This document shows positions 20,187-29,081 of a stretch of 64,000 bases of DNA, one piece after another. The position numbers and the translations under genes were made by a program. Origin of the DNA: Kineococcus sp. TRM81007 (GTDB lineage: Bacteria > Actinomycetota > Actinomycetes > Actinomycetales > Kineococcaceae); the NCBI RefSeq assembly GCF_022669155.1, contig NZ_JALBVB010000056.1, forward strand, positions 221,998-285,997, written 5' to 3'. Under the pieces are notes generated by a model. The model saw only the letters and a program-made list of their open reading frames with translations, made no database searches and was not told the origin of the DNA. Position 1 is the stretch's first letter. Each line of letters begins with the position of its first letter.

Positions 20187-21860
20187 CTGAAGCGGCTCGT
20201 GCGGCGCTGGCACCACCTCATGCTGCGCACCACCCTGCAGCGGCGCGTCTCCGTGATGGCGGGCGTCTTCCTGCTCATCTCCCTCGCCCTGACCGTCGTG
20301 CTCGCCCAGAGCCTGCTGGGTCCGGAGCGGGACGGCGATCAGCACCGCGCCGAGCAGCGGCAGTGGGAGGCCGCCGGCGAGGGGCTGCGCGACCTGCGCG
20401 GCGACTTCGTCGAGCTGCACGCCGTCCACCAGCAGTACGTGCTGTCGACCGACCCCACCCAGACCCCCCGCCTCGCCCGCGAGCGCGAGCAGCTGGCCGA
20501 GCAGCTCACGCAGCGCGAGGACCAGCTGCGCGAGGAGTTCGCCGTCCTGGAGCCGACCGCGCTCACCGGCCGGCTGGAGGAGGCGCTGCGGGACGTCGAG
20601 GAGTGGCGGACCGTCGCCGACAGCCAGGCGGACGTCAAGGCCACCGGGGACGAGGACGGCCTGCGCAGGGCCCTCGCCAACGCCCCCGCCAGCCGGGAGT
20701 TCCGCACCGCCTACCTCGACATGGAGTCCCTGGCGCGGGAGCTGCACCAGGAACGCACAGCCGACGCCGAGCTGGCCGAGGAGGACCTGAACCGCTTCCG
20801 GCTCGTGCAGGTCCTCGTCCTGGGCATCGCCCTGCTGATGGTCCCCACCGTGCTGCACCTCGTGCGCCGCTGGGTCCTGCGCCCCCTCGACCAGCTCTCC
20901 CACCAGATGCTGGGCGTCGGCGGCGGCGACCTGCAGACCCCCGTGGGGCTGGCCGGGCCCCCGGAGCTGGCCGCCGTGGCCCACTCGGCCGAGACGATGC
21001 GCCGGCGCATCCTCGACGAGCTCGCCGACGCCGTCTCCGCCCGCGAGGCCCTGGCCCAGGGCCAGCCCCTCGTCGCCGAGGTGCGCGACCAGCTCGCCGC
21101 CCACGAGCTGCCCGTCCTCGCCGGGTGGTCCGCCGCCGCCGCGCTGCGCCCCGCCGAGGGCCTGCTCGCCGGCGACTGGTACGACGTGCTGCCGCTGCAG
21201 GACGGCCGCTACGCCGTCGTCGTCGCCGACGTCTCCGGGCACGGGGCGCGCGCCGGCATCGTCGCCATCCAGCTCAAGCGCCTCCTGGAGGCCGCGCTGC
21301 ACCTGGCGCCCGAGCCGGACCTGGCGCTGGCCATGGCCGCGCGCGTCTTCACCGACGAGGCCGAGCGCTTCGCCAGCTGCGTGGTCGCCGTCGTCGACCC
21401 CGACTCCGGGCTGGTGCGGTACGCCAACGCCGGGCACCCCGCCCCGCTGGTGCTGCGCTCCGACGGCGGGGCCGTGCGCCTCGTCGCGGAGCTGGAGGCC
21501 ACCGGCCCGCTGCTGTCGTGGCTGCACCTGGACGTGCCCGGCGCCTGGAGCACCGGCACGGTCTCCCTGGCGCCCGGTTCGATGCTCGTCGTCTACACCG
21601 ACGGGCTCACCGAGGCCCGCCCCAGCGGCAGCACCGACGAGCTGGGCGTCGAGGGCGTCCTCGAGGCGCTCTCCGGCCTGCCCGAGCTGACCCCCCAGAC
21701 CCTCGTCGACGAGGCCCTCGACGTCGCCCGCCGCTTCAGCGGCGGGCGGGCCCGCGACGACGTCACCCTCGTCGTCCTCGCCCGCAGCACCACCCCGGCC
21801 CCGAGCGCCCCGCCCGCCGCCCCCTCCGCCCCGGGCGGCTCGCCCCTCCCGGCCGGCTGA
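20187..21860 (+). CDS. Membrane-anchored PP2C-type (SpoIIE/RsbU) serine phosphatase
   Basis: Signalling phosphatase of 557 aa. Two helices (about residues 20-40 and 205-225) flank an extracytoplasmic helical sensor region rich in Glu/Arg, then a HAMP-like linker (WVLRPLDQLSHQM). The C-terminal SpoIIE domain shows GDWYDVLPL, VVVADVSGHGARAG, YANAGHPAPLVL and MLVVYTDGLTEAR, with the metal-binding aspartates in place. Such proteins usually dephosphorylate anti-anti-sigma factors, but none is encoded nearby. The start is probably CTG at 20187: a GGAGGAGG ribosome site lies six bases before it and would give MKRLVRRW. The next candidate, GTG at 20199, is 18 bases from that site. Confidence 0.88.
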   Translation: MKRLVRRWHHLMLRTTLQRRVSVMAGVFLLISLALTVVLAQSLLGPERDGDQHRAEQRQWEAAGEGLRDLRGDFVELHAVHQQYVLSTDPTQTPRLAREREQLAEQLTQREDQLREEFAVLEPTALTGRLEEALRDVEEWRTVADSQADVKATGDEDGLRRALANAPASREFRTAYLDMESLARELHQERTADAELAEEDLNRFRLVQVLVLGIALLMVPTVLHLVRRWVLRPLDQLSHQMLGVGGGDLQTPVGLAGPPELAAVAHSAETMRRRILDELADAVSAREALAQGQPLVAEVRDQLAAHELPVLAGWSAAAALRPAEGLLAGDWYDVLPLQDGRYAVVVADVSGHGARAGIVAIQLKRLLEAALHLAPEPDLALAMAARVFTDEAERFASCVVAVVDPDSGLVRYANAGHPAPLVLRSDGGAVRLVAELEATGPLLSWLHLDVPGAWSTGTVSLAPGSMLVVYTDGLTEARPSGSTDELGVEGVLEALSGLPELTPQTLVDEALDVARRFSGGRARDDVTLVVLARSTTPAPSAPPAAPSAPGGSPLPAG

Positions 21861-21917
21861 GCACCCCGGCGCGGCGAGGTCCTGGAGCGGCCCGCCCGCG
21901 CGCCTACTGTGGAGGGC

Positions 21918-24900
21918 GTGAACGACGCCGCACGCCCCACCGCCGACACGACCCGACGGCGGTGGTGGGCCGAGGCGGAGGCGCTCGGCGGCACGTCCAC
22001 CCTGCTGGACCACCCCGACGGGCCCGACGCGGGCCTGGACCTGACGACCGCGCACCCCTCCGGGCTGGCGCAGCTGCTGGCCGGCGGGCCGGCACCGCTG
22101 TCCAGCCTCGTGCGCGAGTCCGGAGCCTTCGCCGACGCCCGCCGCCGCGCCCGCACCACCCACCGCCGCGCCGCCGTCCTGCTCGCCCAGCGCGGCACCC
22201 GCGCCCTGGCCGTGGCCGTGGGCACCGTCACGTGGGTCCCGCCGCACGGCCCGGCGCGCCGCACCCCCCTGCTGCTGCGCCGCTGCTCCCTGACACCGGT
22301 GGACGGCACGCAGGACGACTTCGTCGTGCAGCTCGACGCCGGCGTCCTCGTCAACCCCGTGCTGGTGCGCACCGCGCGCGCCGAGCTGGGCGTGGAGCTG
22401 GACGCCCCCCGCGTGGCGCGCGCCGTGGGCAGCCACCGCGGTTTCGACCCCGACCCCGCCCTGGAGGAGGTGCGCCGCCAGCTGTCCGGCGCCCCGGGGC
22501 TGAGGGTGGAGCGCCGCCTGCTGCTGAGCACCTTCACCGACCCCGGCTCCGACCTGCTCGCGCACCTGCGCGACCACGGCGCGGACGTGCGCGGCCACCG
22601 GGTGGTGCGGGCCCTGGCCGAGCAGGTGCCCGTCGCCCCCGCCGGCGCGCTGCCGGCCGGTGGTGACGCCCCGGTCGCGGACCGCACCGGGCTGGCGCTG
22701 GACCCGTGGCAGCACCGCGCCGTGGAGCACGTCCTGGCCGGCGGCGACCTGCGCCTGGAGGCATCCGCCGGCACCGGCGCCACCCAGGTCGCCGCCGCGA
22801 TCGTGGCCGCCGGCGCCGCGGCGGGGCGCACCACCCTGCTCGTGGCCGACTCCGCCGCCGAGCGCCGCGCCGTCGATGAGCGCCTGCGCGAGCACGGCCT
22901 GGGGCGCCTCGTGCTGCACGTGACCGCCGAGCTCGACGCCGCCGCCGTGCTCGCCGCCGTGCGCGAGCAGACCCGCGCCGCCAGCGCCGAGGCCGCCGCC
23001 CGCGGCGGCGGCGCGGACCCGGGGTCCCCCCGACCGGAGGCCGCCGGCGCCGCCGCGGTCCTGGACGAGCACGCCCGCGCCCTGCACCGCCCGCGCGAGC
23101 CGTGGGGCGTCAGCGCCCACGACGCGATGGAGGCGCTGGCCGCGCTCGCCGAGCGCGACGTGCCGGCCACCACGACCCGGCGCCTGCGCGGCCGGGCGCT
23201 CGCCGAGTGCCGCCGCGAGGACCTGCCGGTGTGGGCGGCGCGGCTGCGCCGCGCCGTCGAGCTGGGCGCCTTCGAGGTCAGCGGGGCGAGCACCCCGTGG
23301 GCGGACGCGCCGCTGCGCAGCCCCCGCGCGGCCGAGGACGCCCTGGCGCGGGTGCGCTCGGCGCTGGAGCGCACCCTGCCCGCCGCCCGGGCCCTGATGG
23401 CCACCGTCTGCGACGCCGCCGGGCTGCGCGGGGCCGCCTCCGTGGCCGAGGCGAACGCGCGGGTGGAACTGCTGGAGGGGGTGCGCGCCAGCGTCGACCG
23501 CTTCGGGGCCGACGTGTTCACCGTCCCCCTCGGCGACCCGGCCGCCGCCACCGCGACCGCCCAGTGGCGGCGCGAGAACGGCGTGCGCATGGGCGCGCTG
23601 GCGCGCTGGCGGCTGCGCCGCCGGGCGCGCGCCCTGCTGCTGCCCTCCGCGGCGCCCGAGAGCACCGCCGAGCTGCACGACTGGCTGCAGCGGGCGCGCG
23701 CCCAACGGCTGGCCTGGCAGCGCGTCGCCGTGCGCGAGACCGCACCCCACGTCCCCGACGGCCTGGACGAGCTGTGCACCGCCGTCGCCGCCCTGCGCGC
23801 CGACCTGCTCGACCTCGAGCGCGTCCTGCCGGGGCGCCTGCTCGGCGACGTCAGCGCGGACCGCGTCGAGGACGGCTCGCTGCTGGCCGTGCCCCTGCCG
23901 GAGCTGACCGCGCTGCTGCGCTCCCTGGCCGCCGACGCCGCCGCCCTGGACGACCTGCCCGAGCGCACCGTGCTCCTCGACGAGCTCGCCGCCGCCGGCT
24001 GGCAGCCCCTCCTGGAGGACCTGGGCGCCCGCTGGGGCGGCGCGGGCAGCCTGGACCTGACCGCGGAGGTGGAGCGCGCCTGGTGGGCCGGCGTCCTGGA
24101 CGCCGTCTGCCTGGAGGACCACCTCGTCGGTGCGCCCGACGCCCCGGCGCTGCGCAGCGCGCGCGCCGGGCTGCAGCTGGCGGAGGCCGCCGCCCGCACC
24201 CACGACGCGCGGCGGGTGCGCCGCGCCGTGGACGCGCGCGTGCCGGTGGCGCCCGCCGCACCCGTCCGGGCCGCACTGCCCGCCCTGCGCGGTCCCGGCC
24301 GGCCCGCCGAGCCCCTGGGCCCGGAGCTGACGGCGGCGGCCGCGCTGCTGCCGTGCACGGCGCTGTCCGCGGCCGGTGCCGCCGCCCTGGCCGCGGACCT
24401 GCCGCAGGCCGACCTGGTGGTGGTGCTGGGGGCGCGCTCGACCGCCACCTCCTGGGCGCTGCCGGCGCTGGCCCGCGGCCGCCGCCTCGTGGTGGTGGGC
24501 GACCCCGCCCTGCCCGGGCCCCGCGACCTCGCCGACCTCGCCGACCTCACGGGGCGTGACGGCACCGGCGAGGCCGCCCCGCCGCCCCGCAGCCTGCTGG
24601 ACGACGCCGCCGGCGTGCTGCCCGGCCTGCGGCTGGAGCGTCAGCACGCCTGCCTCGACGACCGGCTGCTCGAGGGGGTCGTGCCGGTCACCGGCGACGA
24701 CGCGCAGGACGTGCTGCCCGGTTCCGGCCCCGACCCGCGCGCCGTGCACCGCACCTCGGCGCGCACCGGTGCCCGGCGCGGGCCGGACGCGTTGGTGGAG
24801 CTGACCCTGGGCGTCGTCGCCGACGCGCTGCACCGGTGCCCGGGGGAGTCGCTGGGCGTCCTCGTGCCCGACGCGGCCGGTGCCGACCTGCTGGGCGACG

Positions 24901-25799
24901 TCCTGCGCCGGCGCCTCGCCGAGCGGGGGCTGGGGCACGCGGCCGGGGAGCTGCTGGTCGCCGAACCGCCGCGCTGGGCCGGTGAGCGGCGCGACCACGT
25001 CGTGGTGCTCGCCGACCCCGTGACCGGAGGGGCCGGCCTGGGCGCCGGGCACGCACCCCCGCAGGAGGTCGTCCTGGCGCTGACGCGCTCGCGGCTGCGC
25101 ACCACCCTCGTGCTCGACGACGCCCGGTGGGAGGCGGCGGGGCACGGTGAGCCGGGCGGCTCGGCCGTGGACGGCCGCCCGCTGCTGCTGCGGACCGCGG
25201 TGGCGTGGGAGTCGCCCGCCCCGCACGGCGAGCGCACCACCAGCGCGCTGCAGCGCCGCCTGGCCGCCGCGTGCCGGGACCTGGGGCTGCCCGTGACGCT
25301 CGGCGCCGGGCGGTCCGGAGCCGTGCCGATCGCGGTGCGCCGCCCGGACGGGACGGGACCGGCGCTCGCGGTGGAGCTGGACGGCCCGGGGTGGGCCGCC
25401 GTCGGCGTGCTGGAGCGGGAGGTCGTCGCTCCCGCGCGCCTGGAGCGGCGCGGCTGGTGGTGCGTGCGCTCCCTGGAGGCTGACGTGCTGGCCGACCCCG
25501 CCGCCGAGGCGCACCGGCTCGCGCGGCGCTGGCGCGAGGCGGTGGCGGAGCTGGGCGAGCCGGCGGACCTCGTGCTGGACCTGCGCGCGGACGCCCCGGT
25601 GGGCCCGCCGCCGCGGGACCCGCGGGTGAGCGGACGCGACGAGCGGCACCGCGCCGGGCAGGACGCCGGGCAGGACGCCGTGCAGGACCTCGAGGGGGAC
25701 GTCGAGCGCGAGGCGCCGGACCGGCCCGGCGAGCCGGGGGAGCCTCGGCCGGTGGTCCGGTCCCGGCCGGTGCCGGTGCCGCGCGAGGAGGCGTCGTGA
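21918..25799 (+). CDS. Large helicase-like protein with C-terminal restriction-endonuclease-like domain and degenerate Walker A
   Basis: Protein of 1293 aa resembling actinobacterial superfamily-1 helicase-like proteins. LALDPWQHRAVEHVLAGG followed by ASAGTGATQ (about residues 282-290) aligns with a Q-motif plus Walker A, but the essential Lys is replaced by Ala. A helicase-like C-terminal segment appears near VVVLADPVTGGAGL and EVVLALTRSRLRTTLVLD. The last 100 residues (VELDGPGWAAVGVLEREV, LERRGWWCVRSL) look like a Vsr/MTES_1575-type nuclease fold. It may have lost ATPase activity. GTG at 21918 follows TACTGT (21905-21910) by seven bases, suggesting a leaderless start; GTG at 21909 is an alternative. 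The stop overlaps a 60-aa gene. Confidence 0.7.
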   Translation: MNDAARPTADTTRRRWWAEAEALGGTSTLLDHPDGPDAGLDLTTAHPSGLAQLLAGGPAPLSSLVRESGAFADARRRARTTHRRAAVLLAQRGTRALAVAVGTVTWVPPHGPARRTPLLLRRCSLTPVDGTQDDFVVQLDAGVLVNPVLVRTARAELGVELDAPRVARAVGSHRGFDPDPALEEVRRQLSGAPGLRVERRLLLSTFTDPGSDLLAHLRDHGADVRGHRVVRALAEQVPVAPAGALPAGGDAPVADRTGLALDPWQHRAVEHVLAGGDLRLEASAGTGATQVAAAIVAAGAAAGRTTLLVADSAAERRAVDERLREHGLGRLVLHVTAELDAAAVLAAVREQTRAASAEAAARGGGADPGSPRPEAAGAAAVLDEHARALHRPREPWGVSAHDAMEALAALAERDVPATTTRRLRGRALAECRREDLPVWAARLRRAVELGAFEVSGASTPWADAPLRSPRAAEDALARVRSALERTLPAARALMATVCDAAGLRGAASVAEANARVELLEGVRASVDRFGADVFTVPLGDPAAATATAQWRRENGVRMGALARWRLRRRARALLLPSAAPESTAELHDWLQRARAQRLAWQRVAVRETAPHVPDGLDELCTAVAALRADLLDLERVLPGRLLGDVSADRVEDGSLLAVPLPELTALLRSLAADAAALDDLPERTVLLDELAAAGWQPLLEDLGARWGGAGSLDLTAEVERAWWAGVLDAVCLEDHLVGAPDAPALRSARAGLQLAEAAARTHDARRVRRAVDARVPVAPAAPVRAALPALRGPGRPAEPLGPELTAAAALLPCTALSAAGAAALAADLPQADLVVVLGARSTATSWALPALARGRRLVVVGDPALPGPRDLADLADLTGRDGTGEAAPPPRSLLDDAAGVLPGLRLERQHACLDDRLLEGVVPVTGDDAQDVLPGSGPDPRAVHRTSARTGARRGPDALVELTLGVVADALHRCPGESLGVLVPDAAGADLLGDVLRRRLAERGLGHAAGELLVAEPPRWAGERRDHVVVLADPVTGGAGLGAGHAPPQEVVLALTRSRLRTTLVLDDARWEAAGHGEPGGSAVDGRPLLLRTAVAWESPAPHGERTTSALQRRLAAACRDLGLPVTLGAGRSGAVPIAVRRPDGTGPALAVELDGPGWAAVGVLEREVVAPARLERRGWWCVRSLEADVLADPAAEAHRLARRWREAVAELGEPADLVLDLRADAPVGPPPRDPRVSGRDERHRAGQDAGQDAVQDLEGDVEREAPDRPGEPGEPRPVVRSRPVPVPREEAS

Positions 25800-25978
25800 G
25801 CGTGCCGGGCGGGCAGCCGCGAGGAGGCGCCGGGCAGCGGCGCGAGGAGCCGGCGGGGACCGGCAGCTCCGTGGAGGACGAGCGCTCGGCCGACGACCGC
25901 GACGAGGGCTGGGGTGAGCGGGCCGGCGGGCTGGACGACGACTGGTACCTGTCGCAGCGGCCGCCCCACTGGGACTGA
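25796..25978 (+). CDS. Small hydrophilic protein, 60 aa, coupled to the helicase-like gene
   Basis: Not assigned a function. The GTG start overlaps the stop of the upstream gene as GTGA, so the two are almost certainly cotranslated. The protein is rich in Arg, Glu, Asp and Gly and probably disordered, ending in the distinctive DDDWYLSQRPPHWD. An Arg-Pro-Pro-His-Trp terminus looks like a short linear binding motif. Its fixed position suggests a partner or regulator of the helicase-like protein (inference). Confidence 0.65.
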   Translation: MSVPGGQPRGGAGQRREEPAGTGSSVEDERSADDRDEGWGERAGGLDDDWYLSQRPPHWD

Positions 25979-26059: not shown

Positions 26060-27904
26060 ATGACGTCTCGTGGACCGCGCGTGACGGTAGGTCGAGATCT
26101 CGCGGTCTCCGCTGTCGCAGGGGTTCCTCGTGCGGTCGCGGGCCCACATGATGGGCGCCGATCAGCGGCCGCGACCCCACCCGGTCCGGCCGGGACAGCG
26201 GTCGAGACGACGGTCGGGAGGTGGGGTGTGCACGGGTACCGCGCTGCGACCGGCCCCGCCGCGGCACCGGTGAGCGTGCCCCGGCCGGGCGCGACCCCCA
26301 CCGGCGCCGGGTCCCTCGCCCGGCACCCGCCGCGCCGGCCCCCGCGGGTGGGACGCACCCCGTTGGTGCTCCTCGCCGCCGCCCTGGTCGGCATCACCCT
26401 GACGGCATTCGCGCCGCTGCCCGGGGAGCTCGCCGTGGGGGTGGGCGTGCTGGCCGGTGCCTCGGCCGGTGCGGTGGTCGGTGCCCTCCCGGGGCGCCCG
26501 GCGGCCCGCACTCGCCGGTTCCCCGGTCCGGACTGTGCGCGGGCGGGGCGCCGCGGGCGCGCGGCGCCGCGCGACCGGCTGACCGGGCTGCCCGAGCGGG
26601 AGGCGCTGCTGGCGGCCGTGGACCGCGCCCTGGTCGCGGCGGCCCCGGGAGGACCGGCCCCTGGCCTGCTCGTGGTGGACCTCGACCGGTTCCGGGACGT
26701 CAACGACGCGCTGGGGCACGACGGGGGCGACGACGTGCTGCGCGCCCTCGCCGGTCGGCTGCGCGCGCTGGCGCCGGCCGACGCGGTGGTCGGCAGGCTC
26801 GGCGGCGACGAGTTCGCCGTCCTCGTCCCGGACGGTGCCGGCGCGGAGGACCTCGCACGGCGCGTCGTGCACAGCGCCGGGCGGCCGCTGGACGCCGGCG
26901 GGCTGCGGGTGCTGCTGCCGGCGAGCGTGGGGGTGGCGCTGGCACCCCGGCACGGGTCGGTGGCGGCGGCCCTGCTGCGCAGCGCCGAGGCCGCTCTGCA
27001 CGAGGCCAAGCGGGTGCGCGGGTGCGCCTGCACCTACGGCGGCGAGCACGCTGCCACCGGAGCCCCCGGCGCCGAGCGCCTGCGGTTGCTGGGCGAGTTG
27101 AGCCGGGCGGTGGAGCGCGGTGAGCTGTTCGTGCACTACCAGCCGCAGGTCGACCCGGCGACCGGCGCGCTCGCGGGTGCGGAGGCCCTGGTGCGCTGGC
27201 GCCACCCCGACCTCGGCACCGTCGCACCGGACCGCTTCGTGCCGCTGGCGGAGGGCTCCGGCCTGGTCCACGCCCTGACCGGCGTGGTGCTGGGGCACGC
27301 CCTGGCCGACCTGGCGGGCTGGCGGGCGTGCGGGTGCGACGTGACGGTCTCCGTCAACCTCTCCGCGCGCTCGCTCGCCGAGACCGGTCTGCCCGCGCTG
27401 GTGGCCCGCGAGCTGGATCGCCACGGGGTGCCTGCTCGGGCCCTCGTGCTGGAGGTCACCGAGACGGCTCTGGTGGCGGACCCGCAGCGGGCCCGCACCG
27501 TCGTCGGCGAGCTCCGCGCCCTGGGGTGCTCCGTGGCGGTTGACGACTACGGCACCGGGCAGTCGTCGCTGCGCCGCTTGACGGGCCTGGACGTCGACGA
27601 GCTCAAGATCGACCGCTCCTTCGTGACCGCGATGACCACCGACCGCGCCCGGGAGGTGATCGTGCGCTCCACCGTGCAGATGGCCCGGGACCTGGGGCTG
27701 CGGGTGGTGGCCGAGGGCGTGGAGGACGCCGGCACGCTGCGGGCCCTCGCCGCACTGGGCTGCCACCTCGTGCAGGGCACCCACGTGGGTGAGCCCGCGG
27801 CGGCGGGGGACCTGCTGTGGTCGCTGGCCACGCGCGGCGGTGCGGCGCACCTCGGCGCCGCACCACGGCTCGTGGTGCGGCGCCGCCCTTCCGGCGCGCT
27901 CTGA
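26060..27904 (+). CDS. Membrane-associated GGDEF-EAL cyclic-di-GMP protein
   Basis: Bifunctional signalling protein of 614 aa. An Arg/Pro-rich N-terminus precedes two membrane helices (about residues 108-155). The diguanylate cyclase domain has an intact GGDEF (248-252) after DRFRDVNDALGHDGGD. The phosphodiesterase domain has an intact EAL (375-377), SVNLSARSL, VLEVTETAL, DDYGTGQSSL (from 495), LKIDRSF and AEGVED. Both catalytic motifs look complete, so it could make and degrade c-di-GMP. No sensory domain is visible. The ATG at 26060 has no clear ribosome site; GTG codons near 26230 are alternatives that keep both helices. Confidence 0.9.
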   Translation: MTSRGPRVTVGRDLAVSAVAGVPRAVAGPHDGRRSAAATPPGPAGTAVETTVGRWGVHGYRAATGPAAAPVSVPRPGATPTGAGSLARHPPRRPPRVGRTPLVLLAAALVGITLTAFAPLPGELAVGVGVLAGASAGAVVGALPGRPAARTRRFPGPDCARAGRRGRAAPRDRLTGLPEREALLAAVDRALVAAAPGGPAPGLLVVDLDRFRDVNDALGHDGGDDVLRALAGRLRALAPADAVVGRLGGDEFAVLVPDGAGAEDLARRVVHSAGRPLDAGGLRVLLPASVGVALAPRHGSVAAALLRSAEAALHEAKRVRGCACTYGGEHAATGAPGAERLRLLGELSRAVERGELFVHYQPQVDPATGALAGAEALVRWRHPDLGTVAPDRFVPLAEGSGLVHALTGVVLGHALADLAGWRACGCDVTVSVNLSARSLAETGLPALVARELDRHGVPARALVLEVTETALVADPQRARTVVGELRALGCSVAVDDYGTGQSSLRRLTGLDVDELKIDRSFVTAMTTDRAREVIVRSTVQMARDLGLRVVAEGVEDAGTLRALAALGCHLVQGTHVGEPAAAGDLLWSLATRGGAAHLGAAPRLVVRRRPSGAL

Positions 27905-27969: not shown

Positions 27970-28629
27970 TCACGGCGCGCGCAGGGCGAGCACCGTGCGC
28001 CCGGACGCCGCTGCCAGGCGCGCGGCCGTGGGCGGGTCCACCGCCACCAGCACGCTGCCCGGCCCGCCCGGTGCCGCGCCGAGGAACCCGCTGCCGGTGG
28101 CCGTGGTGGGCACCGCGAGGACCACGACGTCGGAGGCGACGCGCTCGGCGCCGGTGGGCAGGCCCGTGACGGGGTCGTCGGTGCGGGCCAGGACGTCGAC
28201 GCGGGCACCGGACCGCAGCCCGTCGAGGACCGCCGGGTCGCCCACGGCGACGGTGGTGGCCAGCGTGCCCGGCGGCTGCCCGGCCAGCAGGCCGGCGCCG
28301 GTGGTGCGCGCGTCCGTGAGGACCTCACCGCGGCGCACCGCGCCGGAGAGCACGGCACCCCGCGCGCCGGCGTCGTCCAGGGCGCCGTCGGGCACGGTGC
28401 CCGACGGGCGCTCGTCGCTGCGCACGTCGCCCACCGTCAGGGCCGCCCCGGCCGGCAGGTCGCGCGTCGCGACGAGCACCGGCCGCGTCGCCGGCTGCGG
28501 CGGCGCCAGCGCGGACACCGCCACCCCGGCGGCGGCGGCGGTCAGCCCGGCGCTGAGCCAGCGCCGGGCCAGCCTGCGCCGCCGCCGGTCGCGGGGCCCG
28601 GCGGGGCGGGGTGTCGTCTCGCGCAGCAC
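27970..28629 (-). CDS. SAF-domain protein, CpaB-like
   Basis: Membrane-anchored protein of 219 aa. An Arg-rich cytoplasmic N-terminus (RDRRRRRLARRW) is followed by one helix (about residues 26-45) and a SAF domain (about 50-115: LVATRDLPAGAALTVGDV, GAVLSGAVRRGEVLT). A second domain contains ARVDVLARTDDPVTG, as in the Flp-pilus assembly protein CpaB (RcpC). No other tad/flp pilus gene is visible here, so the role is open. The GTG start is chosen because it includes the whole basic segment. Its stop lies two bases past the 12-bp repeat array. Confidence 0.75.
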   Translation of the reverse strand: MLRETTPRPAGPRDRRRRRLARRWLSAGLTAAAAGVAVSALAPPQPATRPVLVATRDLPAGAALTVGDVRSDERPSGTVPDGALDDAGARGAVLSGAVRRGEVLTDARTTGAGLLAGQPPGTLATTVAVGDPAVLDGLRSGARVDVLARTDDPVTGLPTGAERVASDVVVLAVPTTATGSGFLGAAPGGPGSVLVAVDPPTAARLAAASGRTVLALRAP

Positions 28630-28733: not shown

Positions 28734-29081
28734 TCAGGCGGCGGAGGTCGAGCCGCCCGACGCGGAGGAGGACGAGGACGAGGTGGACGACTTGGACGAG
28801 GACGAGCTCGTCGAGGACGACGAGTCCGAACTCTTGGCCGCCGAGCCGCCGGAGTCCTTGGACCCGCTCTTGGCGTCCGAGCCGCCGGACCCGTTGCCGG
28901 AGCCGCTGCGCGAGTCGGTGCGGTAGAAGCCGGAGCCCTTGAAGACGATGCCGACGTTGTTGAACAGCTTGCGCAGCTGCCCCGAGCACTCGGGGCAGGT
29001 GGTGAGGGCGTCGTCGCTGAAGGACTGGCGGACCTCGAAGCTGTGGTCGCACTGCTGGCACGCGTAGGCGTAGGTGGGCAC
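28734..29081 (-). CDS. FmdB-family zinc-ribbon protein
   Basis: Small protein of 115 aa. The N-terminal zinc ribbon MPTYAYACQQC...TTCPEC has Cys at 8, 11, 29 and 32, followed by LRKLFNNVGIVFKGSGFYRTD, diagnostic of the FmdB/CxxC_CxxC_SSSS family. The second half is a very long Ser/Gly/Lys tract, longer than usual, and probably disordered. The biochemical role of the family is not settled. The GTG start has a GGAGA ribosome site. A CIRCE operator 29 bp upstream suggests control by the heat-shock repressor HrcA. Confidence 0.9.
   Translation of the reverse strand: MPTYAYACQQCDHSFEVRQSFSDDALTTCPECSGQLRKLFNNVGIVFKGSGFYRTDSRSGSGNGSGGSDAKSGSKDSGGSAAKSSDSSSSTSSSSSKSSTSSSSSSASGGSTSAA

Follow-up and report, generated by a model that had tools for sequence, protein, structure and literature searches.

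A ProA-related, probably motorless giant protein encoded with a PPHW-tailed partner in Kineococcus sp. TRM81007

What might a giant helicase-like protein do without the lysine of its Walker A motif, and what is the 60-amino-acid protein encoded directly behind it? These questions are raised by a locus of Kineococcus sp. TRM81007 within a stretch of 64,000 nucleotides (nt), here called the window (contig NZ_JALBVB010000056.1, positions 221,998 to 285,997, forward strand). A preliminary description of the window had presented the two genes as a possible defense-like pair and as an undescribed system. Our favored explanation, which we hold with a probability of roughly 0.55, is that an anti-phage-type enzyme was domesticated as a motorless scaffold, comparable to RecC and AddB, and would work together with the PPHW-ending peptide.

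The open reading frame (ORF) of the giant protein runs without stops or frameshifts, as had been described, and begins with a GTG preceded by GGAGG; a second in-frame GTG lies at 21909. The protein has a single match within its own 4.2-Mb genome. The ORF of the small protein is preceded by GAGGAGG, its start and the stop of the helicase gene share 4 nt (GTGA, 25796-25799), and its product ends in RPPHWD.

21918..25799, plus strand: putative pseudo-helicase/pseudo-nuclease gene, 1293 amino acids, with a DUF4011-like N region, a superfamily 1 (SF1) helicase-like core and an MTES_1575/Vsr-like C domain (ORF reading, Pfam, NCBIfam)
25796..25978, plus strand: gene of the 60-amino-acid PPHW-tailed protein, its start overlapping the helicase stop (ORF reading)
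25871..25975, plus strand: conserved core and tail of the small protein, VEDERSADDRDEGWGE...DDDWYLSQRPPHWD (comparison with relatives)

The giant protein was compared with curated family models. NCBIfam model NF058533 (anti-phage ProA) matched it with 131.9 bits (E value 1.6e-38, best stretch residues 75-599), a score that places it in homology with the family but far below the curated cut-off of 1500 bits, which an intact relative from Azospirillum passed with 1570.4 bits. NF042953 (Hhe) gave 37.1 bits against a cut-off of 2000, and PADLOC returned PDC-S37 with 97.6 bits (best stretch 75-525) and Hhe with 30.8 bits. In Pfam, MTES_1575 (PF18741, a Vsr-like restriction endonuclease) matched residues 1135-1203 with 24 bits, short of the gathering cut-off of 38.2, beside traces of AAA_30 and DUF4011. 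All 12 rows of a profile built around the protein matched the ProA and Hhe models of NCBIfam and the PDC-S37 and Hhe models of PADLOC, and ten of the 12 matched MTES_1575 at an E value of 0.01 or better. Searched against solved structures, the 12-row profile retrieved SMUBP-2 (1.9e-12), UPF1 and DNA2, and Vsr at E values of 0.5-0.7 only. On these matches the 1293-residue protein is related to ProA, an anti-phage protein of the DUF4011/SF1-helicase/Vsr type, and descent from a ProA-type defense gene appears to be the best account of its origin. The one close relative with a name in the first search was Kineococcus indalonis (residues 1-749 matched, best segment 79% identity).

Some other relatives were seen in passing. 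An IMG/VR contig (L165:418-5988) carries an Hhe/ProA-type DUF4011 helicase relative with a C-terminal GreA-like match below the cut-off, and in viral_contigs, scanned with one peptide pattern, no relative of the giant protein was found. The C termini of the L037 and L003 helicases have, by eye, an extra segment resembling a winged helix-turn-helix (wHTH)/DUF3320 end that is seemingly missing from the window protein.

As intact references for an alignment of the window protein and its Actinomyces oris relative, four DUF4011/DUF3320 proteins encoded on named plasmids (Haloferax, Azospirillum, Thioclava and Cylindrospermopsis) were used. Both the window protein and the A. oris relative depart from them in Walker A and Walker B, in motifs III-VI and at the Asp of the nuclease domain.

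22041..22115, plus strand: N-terminal block LTTAHPSGLAQLLAGGPAPLSSLVR (consensus of the 12-row alignment A1)
22140..22637, plus strand: DUF4011-like region, spanning residues 75 to 240 or so (12.7 bits in Pfam, below cut-off), with W106, P117 and N146 invariant in the degenerate set
22761..22787, plus strand: Walker A position, ASAGTGATQ against GPPGTGKSQ (alignment)
24420..24440, plus strand: Walker B position, VVLGARS against VIDEASQ (alignment)
24495..24524, plus strand: motif III position, VGDPALPGPR against VGDxxQLPPT (alignment)
24639..24659, plus strand: motif IV position, RQHACLD against WHYRSRx (alignment)
24978..24995, plus strand: motif V position, AGERRD against QGDERD (alignment)
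25068..25094, plus strand: motif VI position, VVLALTRSR against LNVAITRAK (alignment)
25320..25526, plus strand: MTES_1575/Vsr-like domain, residues 1135-1203, with IDLAI changed to VPIAV (Asp replaced) and ECDGxxYHSS to ELDGPGWAAV (Pfam, alignment)

The reading of GTGAT in place of GTGKT was thus confirmed. The lysine of an active SF1 helicase is missing from the window protein, as are the Walker B DE pair and the intact forms of motifs III-VI. The claim that the rest of the helicase scaffold was kept held only in part: a portion survives with some residues invariant, whereas Walker B and motifs III-VI have changed. Much the same applies to the C-terminal restriction-endonuclease-like domain, which is recognizable by its MTES_1575 match, though at a score below the cut-off and with the Asp replaced. 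The Asp of IDLAI and the YH of ECDGxxYH, which we take to be the catalytic nuclease residues (their conservation is read from the intact relatives), are lost in the window protein, which has VPIAV and ELDGPGWA instead. The HPSG form of the N-terminal block is missing in some members of the order of Kineococcus (for example L066).

The same Walker A change occurs in the K. indalonis copy, which ends at a contig edge, and GTGAT was found in all ten readable copies of the genus (one more, L035, lacks the region), so that a local mutation or sequencing error at the P-loop is ruled out. We then counted motifs in 141 rows comprising loci of the order, the window and A. oris; families f30, f17, f28 and f37 were left out, and the loci do not all come from the 149 order genomes discussed below (family and genus codes are labels internal to the genome collection). 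Two rows had no readable P-loop. Of the 139 readable P-loops, nearly all from the order, eight had an intact GK[ST] and 131 lacked the lysine, their five-letter replacements being of at least 60 kinds. None of these 131 copies retained the Walker B DE, a YRS-type motif IV, the QG(D/E)E of motif V or the N(V/I)xxxR of motif VI; the GDxxQ of motif III was kept in three and the nuclease Asp in 25. By contrast, all eight intact copies had the Walker B and motif IV forms as well as the nuclease Asp; motif III was kept in seven, motif V in seven and motif VI in six. Within the order the intact copies were confined to families f5 and f9. One f9 copy (L262, from G376, f9g153) is a possible intermediate, as GKT and DE are retained and motifs III, V and VI are already altered.

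Judged from these alignments, the giant protein is probably without a helicase motor and its nuclease site is probably lost too. The nuclease site may have eroded before the motor, because even the eight motor-intact copies have another residue for the His after the Tyr of the YHSS block. It might be argued that an unusual P-loop still drives a working motor, given that many copies retain a GxGxT frame in which K is replaced by A, G, R, Q, H, L, M, V, N or T, and that the Q-motif Gln is retained in 87% of the degenerate set. This we regard as very unlikely, since the other ATPase motifs changed together with the P-loop and many copies are without any P-loop frame.

Loss of catalytic residues did not extend to the whole protein. 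Since the degenerate set consists by definition of copies without the Walker A lysine, zero retention in that column arises by construction, which is not so for the other columns; the lowest values fell at catalytic columns (Walker A Ser/Thr 0.04, Walker B D 0.22 and E 0.09, motif III Gln 0.13, motif VI Asn 0.00). In 23 degenerate genus representatives, W106, P117, N146, W461, D832, D1155, G1179 and W1180 were invariant. Frames of 1198-1731 amino acids were open in 99 of 100 later order loci, the remaining one reaching a contig end. The ratio of nonsynonymous to synonymous rates (dN/dS) in near Kineococcus pairs was 0.16, 0.23, 0.25 and 0.38, and where two of the near pairs were divided into regions, constraint was strongest over residues 1-240, with ratios of nonsynonymous to synonymous proportions (pN/pS) of 0.12 and 0.25. 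A slowly dying relic under relaxed selection would agree with the repeated loss of motor and nuclease residues and with dN/dS values of up to 0.79 at larger distances; the open frames, the low near-pair values and the residues invariant across families make such decay highly improbable.

The history of the motor was followed on two trees. The intact or lost state changed at least three times, both on a 38-row tree of hand-picked rows from which the motif columns had been removed and on a 73-row tree. Intact rows lie at the base (outgroups, G265 and G061) and within the f5/f9 clade, and since the outgroups are intact we infer that the direction was loss of the motor rather than gain. The two loci that branch at the family base with intact motor motifs, L097 (G061) and L081 (G265), showed no mscL, SAF, FmdB or PPH tail in the available flank. 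The preliminary description had taken homologues with an intact GKT as the possible sign of a local mutation; such homologues do exist, but the trees show repeated change instead.

Of 149 order genomes, 146 had a match to the giant protein, a count in which the weaker matches (e.g. G311, G325, G316, G328 and G341) were taken unread, so that a few may be other DUF4011 proteins. The three genomes without a match are drafts, one of them 62% complete. All 19 nearest relatives had a match. In a search of 296 genomes of the class, all 27 order genomes listed matched strongly; that the 125 match-less genomes, 20 of which were listed, include none from the order depends on how the listing was sorted. 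Outside the order, 22 f30 genomes and three further genomes had matches above 600 bits.

Defense genes are usually patchy in their occurrence. The patchy, mobile distribution expected of anti-phage systems was not seen here, as the gene is nearly universal and its neighborhood is shared in 36 of 38 order loci; the proposal of a defense-like pair is therefore unsupported, even though the kinship itself is of defense type. One could still suppose a defense protein acting as an ATPase-free sensor or decoy for phage DNA or a phage inhibitor, with the PPHW protein as effector or adaptor, and the matches of all 12 profile rows to the ProA, PDC-S37 and Hhe models and the intact Azospirillum relative above the ProA cut-off would fit. 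We think this unlikely given the near-universal presence, the shared neighborhood, the low dN/dS among near relatives and the occurrence of the tail partner across the class.

The small protein behind the helicase stop recurs widely in the order. Among 135 order loci with a flank of at least 700 nt and a stop within 11 codons, 124 had an ORF with a PPH[W/Y/F/H] tail that ended shortly past the helicase stop, with PPHW in 109. Control counts were 0/135 on the reverse strand and 1/135 in an equal segment inside the helicase gene, which rules out a chance ORF. The earlier claim of a translationally coupled protein with a sharp tail motif is borne out, and the association with the small protein, whose lack of conservation would have counted against the earlier view, is conserved. 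In the first set 36 of 38 loci had the tail by the strict rule, the other two having longer tails; in the second set it was found in 89 of the 98 loci with at least 300 nt of flank (two of 100, L282 and L264, were short of flank), G329 and G349 being among those where it was not found. In 23 of 38 loci a start that shares 4 nt with the helicase stop was available.

In-frame fusion of the tail to the C terminus of the giant protein was seen in 25 loci from five families. Two fusions belong to the first set (G064 with the motor intact, G295 with the motor lost) and 23 to the later set of 100 (families f6, f9, f51, f54 and f55). Within f6g7 the genes are separate in G016 and fused in G295 and G368. 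Assembly error is an unlikely source of the fusions in f51 and f55g143, since every genome read there (ten and four, respectively) was fused. The fusion state changed eight times on the 73-row tree, a figure that depends on the choice of eight rows added with their fusion state already known. A literature survey at the level of search results showed no description of the pair, in agreement with the earlier suggestion that it is undescribed.

Beyond the order, a 34-position profile found the tail protein in 186 of 296 class genomes, nearly always with one match each. It is small and acidic, with a core DDxDxGWGE...RPPH(W/H/Y), and in genomes without a full-length helicase-like protein the tail is often PPHH. 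No Pfam or NCBIfam model was matched by the tail protein in searches of six peptides each. A Nonomuraea match of the small protein (E value 0.2) was dropped, as its surroundings gave no support. In 11 of 20 fetched regions (L145-L164), 19 of them from genomes without a full-length helicase-like protein, an MscL-cluster gene faced the tail gene within 100 nt.

We tested the neighborhood in the 38 order loci of the first set. In the order the tail gene comes after the helicase-like gene, and in 36 of the 38 loci one or more of mscL, SAF and FmdB followed on the other strand, identities that were assigned from two examples for MscL and then one to two each for SAF and Zn_ribbon_8. Family f30 had the same neighborhood in 19 of 22 loci, and the annotation of the A. 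oris locus reads MscL, SAF and 5-FCL. A conserved upstream partner of the tail gene was rejected, since ORFs upstream of it (nine from genomes without a full-length helicase-like protein and one from f30) gave mixed Pfam matches (nitroreductase, LytR_cpsA_psr, epimerase, CBS) or none. The window has both SAF and FmdB, separated from the PPHW gene by a GGDEF-EAL gene; mscL was not found in the 64 kb. The gene pair has stayed together in the window lineage although the surroundings changed. A HAMP-SpoIIE-like protein is also encoded upstream in K. indalonis (L002, judged by eye).

20199..21860, plus strand: HAMP-SpoIIE phosphatase gene, upstream of the helicase-like gene (Pfam)
26060..27904, plus strand: GGDEF-EAL gene, at the place of convergent mscL in many relatives (Pfam, neighborhood comparison)
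28006..28479, minus strand: SAF-domain gene of the conserved locus (neighborhood comparison)
28851..29078, minus strand: FmdB-type zinc-ribbon (Zn_ribbon_8) gene of the conserved locus (neighborhood comparison)

This conservation invites the view that the pairing is a shared address only, with two unrelated core genes near mscL kept in order by vertical descent and having no joint function. The whole neighborhood is indeed conserved, the tail protein exists without the helicase-like protein, and in many f30 genomes the tail motif lies at least 0.7 kb past the helicase stop, in one of them with a two-CBS-domain gene (L113:8597-9079) between the pseudo-helicase and the PPHW gene. Mere co-location nevertheless seems improbable beside the in-frame fusions in 25 loci, the overlapping start and stop in many loci, and the Kineococcus loci, where the pair stays together although no mscL was found beside it. 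Adjacency, overlap and fusion support the pairing.

We propose that a ProA-type SF1 helicase-nuclease was captured at a locus holding the PPH-tail gene, mscL, SAF and FmdB, in an ancestor of the order and family f30, and then became near-universal and vertically inherited in the order. The ATPase motor would have been lost at least three times, along with much of the nuclease site, while many other residues were retained. The protein would now work without ATP hydrolysis, as a scaffold in the RecC/AddB manner, and the acidic PPHW peptide, either co-made or attached at the C terminus, would be a docking tail that takes the scaffold to a partner shared by actinobacteria. Since the tail protein also exists without the scaffold, its putative receptor would be common to the class. 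The scaffold-plus-tail part of this explanation we consider quite probable, and it is much firmer than DNA binding by the putative scaffold, which we hold to be possible but doubtful. Overall, these comparisons suggest that an old defense-type enzyme has become a structural part of the cell.

Several results weigh against this proposal. In all seven checkable loci (of eight) of family f58 (L256, L257, L258, L261, L263, L287 and L288) no PPH tail was found nearby, and these loci still hold the pseudo-helicase. A full-length helicase-family match was missing from 139 of the 186 tail-positive class genomes (matches near the 0.01 limit being uncertain), so the scaffold is not the tail's only partner. 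The window protein alone matched no solved structure at an E value of 1, and the profile that did includes one intact row. Its AlphaFold model is poor, with a mean predicted local distance difference test (pLDDT) score of 45.5 and, by eye, a RecA-like look only around residues 263-335 and 831-861; Foldseek hits to the poor model include SF1 helicases with template modeling (TM) scores by query length of 0.1 or less, and were not relied on. The motif blocks are not wiped out, as 53 of their columns that are conserved in the intact proteins are kept at a mean of 0.48 in the degenerate set, compared with 0.64 for 127 columns outside, and dN/dS rises to 0.50-0.79 at larger distances, where synonymous change is harder to count.

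It is tempting to speculate further that PPH[W/H] is an actinobacterial C-terminal docking tag for a conserved receptor, and that the captured helicase-nuclease was repeatedly stripped of its motor and tagged, by a gene beside it or fused to it; we offer this tentatively. If it is true, the core machinery of the order includes a motorless nucleic-acid scaffold of a new kind. On the trees the motor switched state three times or more in a single near-universal gene, and intact relatives still live within the order, so that a switch from engine to scaffold could be compared step by step; the fusions connect the giant protein directly with the tail protein, in a way that can be tested.

How does the pair compare with known systems? 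ProA (NF058533, PDC-S37 in PADLOC) is homologous and has the same succession of a helicase core and a Vsr-like domain, but in the window protein the motor and nuclease residues are replaced, the ProA score is far below 1500 bits, and the giant protein is near-universal in the order at a shared locus with a PPHW partner. Hhe (NF042953, also in PADLOC) shares homology in the helicase core; the window protein is shorter, far below 2000 bits and changed in its catalytic motifs. The giants with HEPN, transglutaminase, SF1, Vsr and wHTH domains (PMC3710099) likewise have an SF1 helicase followed by an MTES_1575-type Vsr fold, whereas Pfam reports no HEPN, transglutaminase or wHTH domain in the window protein and its active-site residues are replaced. 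In Pseudomonas aeruginosa cDHS1, a core DUF4011 gene lies beside a conserved small hypothetical gene (PMC10250203), an arrangement that, as described, resembles the present pair; the available part of that report mentions neither motor loss nor a PPHW tail. The motor motifs changed in concert with other residues retained, a pattern reminiscent of RecC and AddB. According to PMC1185551 and PMC4824097, inactivated SF1 helicase domains serve Chi recognition and DNA guidance in RecC and AddB, and RecC additionally has an inactivated nuclease-like domain. As in those proteins, an apparently inactivated SF1 fold, the inactivation here being indicated by sequence, is retained in the giant protein, although its helicase kin differ (the profile matches SMUBP-2, UPF1 and DNA2) and its candidate partner is a short tail peptide instead of RecB or RecD. 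RecC and AddB thus provide the precedent that motor folds can be reused as readers.

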